This document shows positions 34,569-36,880 of a DNA stretch of 64,000 bases, piece by piece (the first letter of the stretch is position 1; every line of letters starts with the position of its first letter). The DNA comes from Acidilobus saccharovorans 345-15 (lineage in GTDB: Archaea; Thermoproteota; Thermoprotei_A; Sulfolobales; Acidilobaceae). The stretch spans positions 558,001 through 622,000 of the forward strand of contig NC_014374.1 in the NCBI RefSeq assembly GCF_000144915.1. Reading direction: 5' to 3'. A program made the position numbers and the translations under genes. A model generated the notes under the pieces. That model saw nothing but the letters and a program-made list of their open reading frames with translations, had not been told where the DNA came from and searched no databases.

Positions 34569-34838
34569 GCCTGGCACCTCACTTAGGCCTGTCACCTGGG
34601 ATTTTAACCCTTGAGCACCTCAGGCGTCACCCGGCGGCTCAGCTTAAGTGTTGAGGTCGGCTAAAGTCGGAGGGACCTTTATGAGCGAGGGCGGCCGCCC
34701 GGCTATGAGCAAGGCTTAGTAGCAGGTAATAATAGAAGAAGAGAAGAAGTCGGATCTTTCTCAAAGGGCTGGGGAGTTAATTGGTATTACCGGCCACGCC
34801 GGCGTTAGGTTTATATAATATCAAGCCTAAGCCATAGT
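34569..34838. other. Intergenic spacer with dyads
   Basis: No convincing gene. It holds the rps24e promoter (minus strand), a 12-bp self-complementary GGGCGGCCGCCC (34689-34700) flanked on both sides by TATGAGC words, a purine-rich AGAAGAAGAGAAGAAG stretch (about 34735-34750), a short hairpin CCGGC-CAC-GCCGG near 34790, and at 34810-34819 the TATA box of the next plus-strand unit. Confidence 0.5.
34810..34819 (+). promoter_or_regulatory. TATA box of the mini-ORF/methyltransferase unit
   Basis: TTTATATAAT is a textbook archaeal TATA box centred 25 bp before ATG 34839, predicting a leaderless mRNA that begins at or next to that ATG. Confidence 0.65.
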
Positions 34839-34958
34839 ATGGCTAAGATGTTGGGTAGAAGTAAGTTGTGGGGCGAGGGCCGCGCTGCGGCATCAGTTTT
34901 GGCCGGGAGGGCCTTAGGTATAACTATAATTAAAAAGGTAGTAGCGGAAAGGGCGTGA
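34839..34958 (+). CDS. 39-residue basic mini-protein, coupled to methyltransferase
   Basis: ATG 34839 opens 39 codons to TGA 34956-34958, translating as MAKMLGRSKLWGEGRAAASV then LAGRALGITIIKKVVAERA (contiguous). It is basic and could form one amphipathic helix in its second half. Support: exact leaderless spacing from a strong TATA box, and its stop overlaps the methyltransferase start as GTGA (34955-34958), a translational-coupling arrangement also seen at other gene pairs here. No homologue is recognised. It might instead be only a translated leader for the methyltransferase. Confidence 0.55.
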   Translation: MAKMLGRSKLWGEGRAAASVLAGRALGITIIKKVVAERA

Positions 34959-36553
34959 TCATGCACATAGATGAAAGTCAATATAAAGTGCAGGACCTCG
35001 TGGACAGGAAAAGGACGTCTTCATACTACACTACATATGATGGAATCTCAGTCATAAGGTCCTTCCTAAAGGAAGTCCCAAGCAGGGAAGGGGCTGTATT
35101 AATGGACCCCTTCATGGGCTCTGGCGTCCTACTTTCCTCAGTTGACGACCTGGTTAAACCTAGCAGGGTCATTGGCATTGAGATAAATAAAGAGCCCTGC
35201 GAGCTGGGGCGTAAAATGCTCTCCTCAATTTACGATAGCGTGGAAGTTATATGCGGTGACGCGTTCAAGGTGGCGTGGAAGTACAAGGCCGATATAATAG
35301 TTTCTAACCCTCCCTTCGTCAGGTGGCACCTGATAAGTAACAGGGACGAGCTGCTCAACTCCGTAATTTCGCACGGTTACGGCAGCTTCGTTTCGAGGAG
35401 GGACCCCGGGCTTCACATACTGTCGATATTTCTAATGGACTACATATTGAAGGAGGGCGGGCACGCGCTGCTCGTGCTCCCGGCGTCAACGTTTTACACG
35501 AGGCAGGGCGACGGAGTGAAGAAGCTCCTGAAGTACAGGTACGACGTCATCGCAATGGCGGAGAACTTAAAGTCGCCCTCGTTCAGCTCTGGAAGCGGAT
35601 TCAAGGAGCTCATAGTATTCCTTAGAAAGAGAAAGCTGTTCGAGTTTAACGCCGTGCAGACGGCCATATACCAGTATGATGGCAACTTAAAGGAATCGCG
35701 CAGGGTAAACCTAAGTAAAATGCCCAAACTTTTAGACAGGAACTGGCTAAGCTTATTCGATTATGATAACGCAGAAGCGGTGGCTGAGATGATTGAGAAA
35801 GCCTTAGATATGGGGCTATTACGTTACCTGAGGAAGGGGGAAATTATAAGGGGCGTGGAAATGTACGGCCCAGACTTCTTTTTCATCCCAAACAGGGCGT
35901 GGAGCATCGTAGGGGAGGACGAAAGCTCCGTCCTGATAAGCAACAGGGAGCAGACCCTGAGGCTTCCCAAGAGGTATTTAGTCAAGTGCCTCAGGAAGCC
36001 CGAGTACTATAATGACAGCATTGTAGTGCACGACCCCAGGTTTTACGCTATTGCAATCAATGATGACCCGGAGGGCGACGTCGCGAAGTACGTTGAGTGG
36101 GGCGAGAGGCAGAACATACCCGCCTTAAAGTTTGGCAGCAAGTGGTACCAGCACGTCTGGAGACAGCTGCAGACCAAAAAGCCATATGGGCACGTTTTCA
36201 TTCATGACAAGTTAGATCCGACTAGACACGTGATCCTGGCCAATTACAGCGAGAAACCGCTGTGCGCGTCAAAGAACTTTTACATCATAAGGGAGAACAA
36301 CCCGCTGATAGCCGCTTGGCTTAACTCGAGCATTATGCAGTATATATTGCAGACCTTCAGTAAGAGGATATCGGACAACTGGACCAGGCTGTTAGAGGAT
36401 GACTACTTGGAAATTCCTGTGCCCTCGAAAGTCAAGGATGTGGATCTAAGCAGCGTTCAAAACGCGGAAAAAGCGATAGAAGAGTATTTAGACATTAGAA
36501 GCATTAATGCAACAATTATCAAGGACCCCCCTAACTCTATCCATGAACTCTAA
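34955..36553 (+). CDS. Adenine-specific DNA methyltransferase (N6-MTase, gamma-class order)
   Basis: A 532-residue S-adenosylmethionine-dependent methyltransferase. Motif I is DPFMGSG (51-57), an acidic loop follows (E76 in GIEINKE), D102 in CGDAF, and motif IV NPPF (118-121) marks target-adenine (or N4-cytosine) binding. Motif order with a long C-terminal half (about 230-532, containing VKCLRKPEYYND, and WLNSSIMQYILQTFSKRI) suggests a built-in target-recognition domain like M.TaqI or type IIG subunits, but no nuclease motif PD-(D/E)xK is evident. No restriction gene is adjacent. Composition is more AT-rich than the neighbours and the gene lies beside a tRNA gene, both consistent with horizontal acquisition. 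Start GTG 34955 or ATG 34961. Confidence 0.88.
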   Translation: MIMHIDESQYKVQDLVDRKRTSSYYTTYDGISVIRSFLKEVPSREGAVLMDPFMGSGVLLSSVDDLVKPSRVIGIEINKEPCELGRKMLSSIYDSVEVICGDAFKVAWKYKADIIVSNPPFVRWHLISNRDELLNSVISHGYGSFVSRRDPGLHILSIFLMDYILKEGGHALLVLPASTFYTRQGDGVKKLLKYRYDVIAMAENLKSPSFSSGSGFKELIVFLRKRKLFEFNAVQTAIYQYDGNLKESRRVNLSKMPKLLDRNWLSLFDYDNAEAVAEMIEKALDMGLLRYLRKGEIIRGVEMYGPDFFFIPNRAWSIVGEDESSVLISNREQTLRLPKRYLVKCLRKPEYYNDSIVVHDPRFYAIAINDDPEGDVAKYVEWGERQNIPALKFGSKWYQHVWRQLQTKKPYGHVFIHDKLDPTRHVILANYSEKPLCASKNFYIIRENNPLIAAWLNSSIMQYILQTFSKRISDNWTRLLEDDYLEIPVPSKVKDVDLSSVQNAEKAIEEYLDIRSINATIIKDPPNSIHEL

Positions 36554-36804: not shown

Positions 36805-36880
36805 CGGGTCCGGGGGGATTTGAACCCCCGACCTCCGGCTCCGAAGGCCGGCGCGCTGGTCCTGGCTACGCCACGGACCC
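36805..36880 (-). tRNA. tRNA-Arg (anticodon UCG)
   Basis: The minus strand folds as a complete cloverleaf: acceptor GGGTCCG/CGGACCC with G discriminator, D arm, anticodon stem CCGGC/GCCGG with loop CTTCGGA (anticodon TCG), five-base variable loop AGGTC, and T arm GGGGG-TTCAAAT-CCCCC. Length 76 nt, no intron, CCA not encoded. A TATA-like AAATAATG lies about 26-34 bp upstream (about 36906-36914). It reads CGA (and possibly other CGN) codons, which are rare in these AGG-rich genes. Confidence 0.95.

Follow-up and report, generated by a model that had tools for sequence, protein, structure and literature searches.

Between the genes for Kae1, S27ae and S24e on its left and those for tRNA-Arg(TCG), an HTH protein and an amidohydrolase on its right, the genome of Acidilobus saccharovorans 345-15 (a single contig of 1,496,453 bases) carries a two-gene unit consisting of a 39-codon ORF, here called the mini-ORF, and a DNA methyltransferase (MTase) gene. 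Coordinates in Table 1 refer to the window, the whole 64,000-nucleotide stretch that was analyzed. The spacers at the unit measure 243 and 251 bp. With a GC content of 0.488 and a GC3 of 0.65, the MTase gene is set apart from neighbors with values of 0.61-0.65 and 0.84-0.87, respectively; no cognate nuclease gene is found among the five protein-coding neighbors named above, so the locus does not hold a complete restriction-modification (R-M) system. A pattern count of TTTATAWW on the + strand of the window returns two sites, one of them the box ahead of the mini-ORF, and Thermocladium UBA166 and the congener G022 have comparable TATA boxes that start 30 and 33 bp, respectively, before the homologous ATGs. 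In all these respects (the short ORF, its TATA box, the AT-richness, the adjacent tRNA gene and the missing nuclease), the first-pass annotation described the locus correctly.

Table 1. Coordinates of the features at and beside the two-gene unit (window numbering)
Feature	Position	Strand	Remarks
Promoter and first ~21 mini-ORF codons	34769..34902	+	DNA homologous to a relic in the Sulfolobaceae-like genome G203
TATA box TTTATATA	34810..34817	+	Starts 29 bp and ends 21 bp before ATG 34839; spacing suits a leaderless transcript
Mini-ORF	34839..34958	+	39 codons; probably an eroded AbrB-type regulator gene, possibly retained as a leader ORF
GTGA junction	34955..34958	+	Probably not the MTase start; the conserved start of relatives aligns with ATG 34961
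Solitary gamma-class N6-adenine DNA MTase	34961..36553	+	530 aa from the conserved ATG; PF02384
tRNA-Arg(TCG)	36805..36880	-	ARAGORN and Rfam; 3' end faces the MTase gene; outside the unit

The junction between the two ORFs needs a different reading. An overlap at GTGA had been proposed, and the four letters are indeed there; the overlap is not. The MTase N-termini align as MHIDESQYKV (A. saccharovorans), MFIDELQYKV (G022) and MHVDGAQYEV (UBA166), and because both homologues begin at this point, the start is probably ATG 34961, not GTG 34955. With this conserved start, the mini-ORF and the MTase gene abut without overlapping. The gap from mini-ORF stop to MTase ATG is 2 nt, compared with 3 nt in G022 and 1 nt in UBA166.

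The methyltransferase and its relatives

The larger gene encodes an intact, solitary gamma-class N6-adenine DNA MTase under purifying selection. Its match to PF02384 (N6_Mtase) scores 35.5 bits, the curated cut-off being 20.4; a weak TaqI-like domain at the C terminus stays below its cut-off. Motif I (DPFMGSG) and motif IV (NPPF) are intact, conserved and in the order that places it in the gamma class. The AlphaFold model (pLDDT 81) finds its best PDB matches in CamA and M.BseCI, followed by M.TaqI. Substitution rates (dN 0.25 and dS 1.9 versus G022; dN 0.20 and dS 3.6 versus UBA166, the dS values being near saturation) give a dN/dS of about 0.06-0.13, and it is from the low dN relative to dS that purifying selection is clear. 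The enzyme would be expected to methylate adenine in DNA.

Homologues occur in 6 of the 229 genomes of the class, as well as in Thermocladium and in Vulcanisaeta, where the JCM drafts show frameshifts that are possibly sequencing errors. Phage and plasmid records contain no relatives, and the viral contigs only one contig with any; a 38.7-kb contig classed as viral (L076) carries a 690-aa homologue with 35% identity. In the tree, the A. saccharovorans MTase is sister to the UBA166 copy (96/95), the latter from a MAG contig for which misbinning is possible, and the copy of the congener G022 falls outside this pair. Such a topology suggests that the gene has moved horizontally among hot-spring archaea, between orders.

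Some relatives keep different company. In G017, the MTase homologue is preceded by a frameshifted AbrB-like gene and followed on its 3' side by an R.HinP1I-like nuclease gene (E 2.3e-15); a 157-codon frame without assigned function (L054:4787-5257) separates the first two genes of this cluster, AbrB-like and MTase. Divergent MTase-like proteins in G016 (L009:1132-3204) and G017 (L010:1246-3321), both encoded beside a cysteine-desulfurase-like gene, have a degraded NPPF motif, which suggests non-catalytic or repurposed copies.

Homology and probable erosion of the mini-ORF

What the mini-ORF descends from becomes visible through its counterparts elsewhere. At the same position, G022 has a 49-codon ORF (MAKALDESKPWGKGYTTAPVPVKRVLETDEDSEIEWVLNDNSKVIARKA) that a Pfam search missed; an AbrB profile made from seven AbrB-like ORFs with the G022 ORF left out detects it at 33.5 bits (E 1.3e-9), the best spurious fragment of 8110 reaching 12.9 bits. 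The G022 ORF also matches AbrB-like ORFs in nine other genomes. The first 26 residues of the mini-ORF align with it, 13 of them identical (50%), and 21 aa align with the relic in G203 (MAKVLGRSKLWGKGYTTVPVLV), which retains an intact AbrB motif, YTTVP. None of 2000 shuffles reached the mini-ORF alignment score against either partner. The resemblance to G203 holds for the DNA as well: an alignment of 148 columns spanning promoter and gene start shows 74% identity with the relic (E 7e-22). The mini-ORF is thus homologous to AbrB-like ORFs and relics and does not represent a peptide family of its own. A conserved small ORF upstream of homologous MTases, as the first-pass annotation envisaged, exists in G022 and, as a copy broken by a TGA in codon position 11 and a frameshift of 2 nt, in UBA166; it is absent ahead of the Vulcanisaeta copies.

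The assignment to AbrB rests on these relatives, because the mini-ORF by itself matches no model: Pfam (none at E<=10) and NCBIfam yield no family, PF04014 included, nor an HTH_3/Xre domain in Pfam, and its score on the AbrB profile is -1.1 bits. The significance of the mini-ORF lies in its homology, since shuffles of the same composition leave a frame this long open with a probability of about 0.09 and openness alone is not rare. Descent from the N-terminal domain of long (about 700 aa) MTase homologues was considered and set aside, as the AbrB match explains the ORF better.

The AbrB core has gone. Where relatives have YTTVP, the DNA-contact motif of the first strand, the mini-ORF reads RAAAS, and about 10 codons for the EIEWVL strand are missing, leaving neither a TTIP-type first-strand motif nor a GDxIEW strand. 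Codon-position GC is flat (0.49/0.54/0.54, versus 0.47/0.34/0.65 in the MTase gene), and the N-terminal dN of 0.38 exceeds the MTase value of 0.25; toward the C terminus, VVAERA still resembles VIARKA of G022. The non-coding-like codon GC together with the lost motif and codons leads us to regard the mini-ORF as an AbrB gene in erosion: what is left, probably, of a small DNA-binding switch of this family that would formerly have governed a DNA-modification system and has since lost that function. A controller, as had been suggested, is therefore right as to ancestry; with the AbrB core lost, an active controller at this locus is unlikely. For the other proposed roles, an anti-restriction protein or a structural partner, we found no evidence.

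AbrB-type genes upstream of R-M and methyltransferase genes

How archaea restrain R-M genes that could kill or over-methylate a new host is little known, and it is here that the relatives of the mini-ORF may be most informative. A profile search of the genomes of the class gave 17 strong AbrB hits (E <= 1e-11), among them the G022 ORF, itself a row of the query. In 11 of the 17 (G022 counted), an AbrB-like gene of ~50 aa lies directly upstream of a DNA MTase or R-M gene; the partners are type IIG or HSDR_N-type proteins (L099-L102, L105), N6 or N4 MTases (G022, L107, L124, L125) and DUF1156 MTases (L109, L123). Full-length relatives match PF04014. For none of the 11 weaker hits was a methyltransferase-like partner seen by eye; beside most of them lies a gene that, judged from sequence, resembles a PIN toxin. 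A. saccharovorans itself has a second pair outside the window (251408-252260, - strand; L031, L097), in which an intact AbrB gene overlaps an N6-adenine MTase gene, a 472-aa frame with a C-terminal specificity-like part.

Twelve members of the strong group share a promoter layout at a fixed distance from the ATG: a TTTA resembling a TATA box lies near -46, and AATTCTATAGTGGGTGCTATAG occupies -27 to -6. The shared element is a CTATAG-N6-CTATAG dyad, and information in the 12 promoters averages 1.28 bits in the final 30 bp versus 0.27 upstream. It looks like a candidate operator with a built-in Shine-Dalgarno sequence (GGTG). The Acidilobus copies lack the element. In viral contigs, the operator 18-mer has 16 matches, about chance level, and no AbrB relatives were found there.

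One may envision, tentatively, a Thermoprotei family of AbrB-type proteins dedicated to the control of R-M and MTase genes through a conserved CTATAG-N6-CTATAG operator extending into the ribosome-binding region, a family of which the Acidilobus member has decayed with its frame kept as a leader; taken as a whole, we hold this for doubtful. The literature collection searched contained no paper on AbrB-type R-M controllers, and an AbrB switch ahead of R-M genes across the class appears not to have been described before. This class-wide linkage is the more novel lead and the part worth following: an AbrB-type family before R-M genes across Thermoprotei, together with a shared promoter dyad, offers a concrete and testable controller candidate.

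History of the unit and its place among known systems

The reading we favor, and consider likely, sees in the pair the remnant of an R-M-type unit that was exchanged horizontally, with an intact MTase and a decayed AbrB regulator whose ORF was perhaps kept as a leader. The suggestion of a defense-derived, exchanged two-gene unit with a mini-ORF of controller-type descent finds support. An AbrB-type swapped-hairpin DNA-binding protein would originally have stood ahead of the MTase gene and probably regulated it. With the YTTVP motif and the EIEWVL strand gone, the mini-ORF product would no longer bind DNA as an AbrB dimer. Ribosomes could begin at ATG 34839 on a leaderless mRNA, terminate at 34958 and reinitiate at ATG 34961, and the mini-ORF may persist because such reinitiation serves an MTase start that lacks a well-spaced Shine-Dalgarno sequence; none stands at normal spacing before ATG 34961, the only complement being GTGAT, 1 nt from the ATG. 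A translation-coupling leader is possible and is the present role we prefer. Coupling is not universal, as the Thermocladium MTase has its own Shine-Dalgarno sequence; one lies a few bases before the MTase start in this copy and in most of the Vulcanisaeta copies examined. Nor is retention for coupling proven, given a chance of ~9% that the frame is open anyway. The unit would then be a snapshot of the fate of a controller once the nuclease is gone, the MTase being kept as its switch erodes.

Closest to this reading comes a plain pseudogene without a present role, with ribosomes entering the MTase frame at a site of its own on the shared mRNA. The broken Thermocladium copy, the Vulcanisaeta loci without any ORF and the ease with which a frame stays open by chance make this quite possible, if clearly less probable than the decayed unit with its intact MTase; a frame that reaches within 2 nt of an MTase start with no well-placed Shine-Dalgarno sequence speaks against it. 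If, on the other hand, the mini-ORF still worked, as a shortened AbrB-derived controller or a micro-protein that controls the MTase or acts as its partner, one could understand why its frame has stayed open, why its ATG and, at a distance suited to leaderless transcription, its TATA box are still there, and why VVAERA still resembles its counterpart; RAAAS in place of YTTVP, the missing strand, the non-coding-like codon GC and an N-terminal dN above that of the MTase render this unlikely. Hardly credible is a chance frame with kinship to no gene. It would fit the lack of a Pfam or NCBIfam match and the 0.09 probability of an open frame, and it is contradicted by significant homology at the same position in two other genomes plus a relic in a third.

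The favored history of horizontal exchange does not extend to site-specific integration of an element at tRNA-Arg, which we regard as very improbable. In both Acidilobus genomes, the copy is found 3' of a tRNA-Arg gene (the isoacceptors differ), and tree and composition alike mark the MTase as foreign; set against this, neither attachment-site repeats (in the form of a directly repeated tRNA 3' end) nor an integrase gene were found flanking the unit, leaving integration at the tRNA gene without support. Only one of the other homologous loci scanned (L062) has a tRNA gene, >3 kb away. The tRNA-Arg(TCG) gene is a conserved neighbor of the HTH and amidohydrolase genes: G022 and G024 show the same linkage with no MTase gene at this place, which in G024 is taken up by some 9 kb of ordinary genes. 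This stretch (C1 55.7-64.7 kb, L085), from tRNA-Arg(TCG) to S24e, holds unrelated genes including an apparent C-terminal fragment of TnpB; the spot is thus simply variable. The ThermoDBP-like gene flanking the G022 copy is not tRNA-adjacent in relatives and thus affords no clean empty-site comparison for that copy. The exact promoter 20-mer has two matches in viral contigs, in unrelated phages, which we judged to be due to chance.

Among known systems, the Type II R-M controller (C) proteins used by bacteria offer a positional analogy, as small DNA-binding genes directly before an MTase or R-M gene; C proteins are HTH (Xre-like) proteins, whereas the relatives described here are AbrB-type and the A. 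saccharovorans copy is decayed. The best PADLOC match of the MTase domain is the MADS mad2 methyltransferase (PDLC04134; E 3e-22), but only the MTase domain aligns (residues 13-242) and the immediate neighbors include no other mad components, leaving a two-gene unit only. CamA of Clostridioides difficile (7lt5), a solitary MTase too, and M.BseCI (7qw5) share the predicted fold and the N6-adenine catalytic motifs with the present enzyme, which is archaeal and only 14-15% identical to them. As for the SpoVT/AbrB swapped-hairpin regulators (MazE-like, PF04014), the mini-ORF has neither their diagnostic motif nor their strand and matches no model alone, yet its G022 homologue fits the AbrB profile and its full-length relatives match PF04014.
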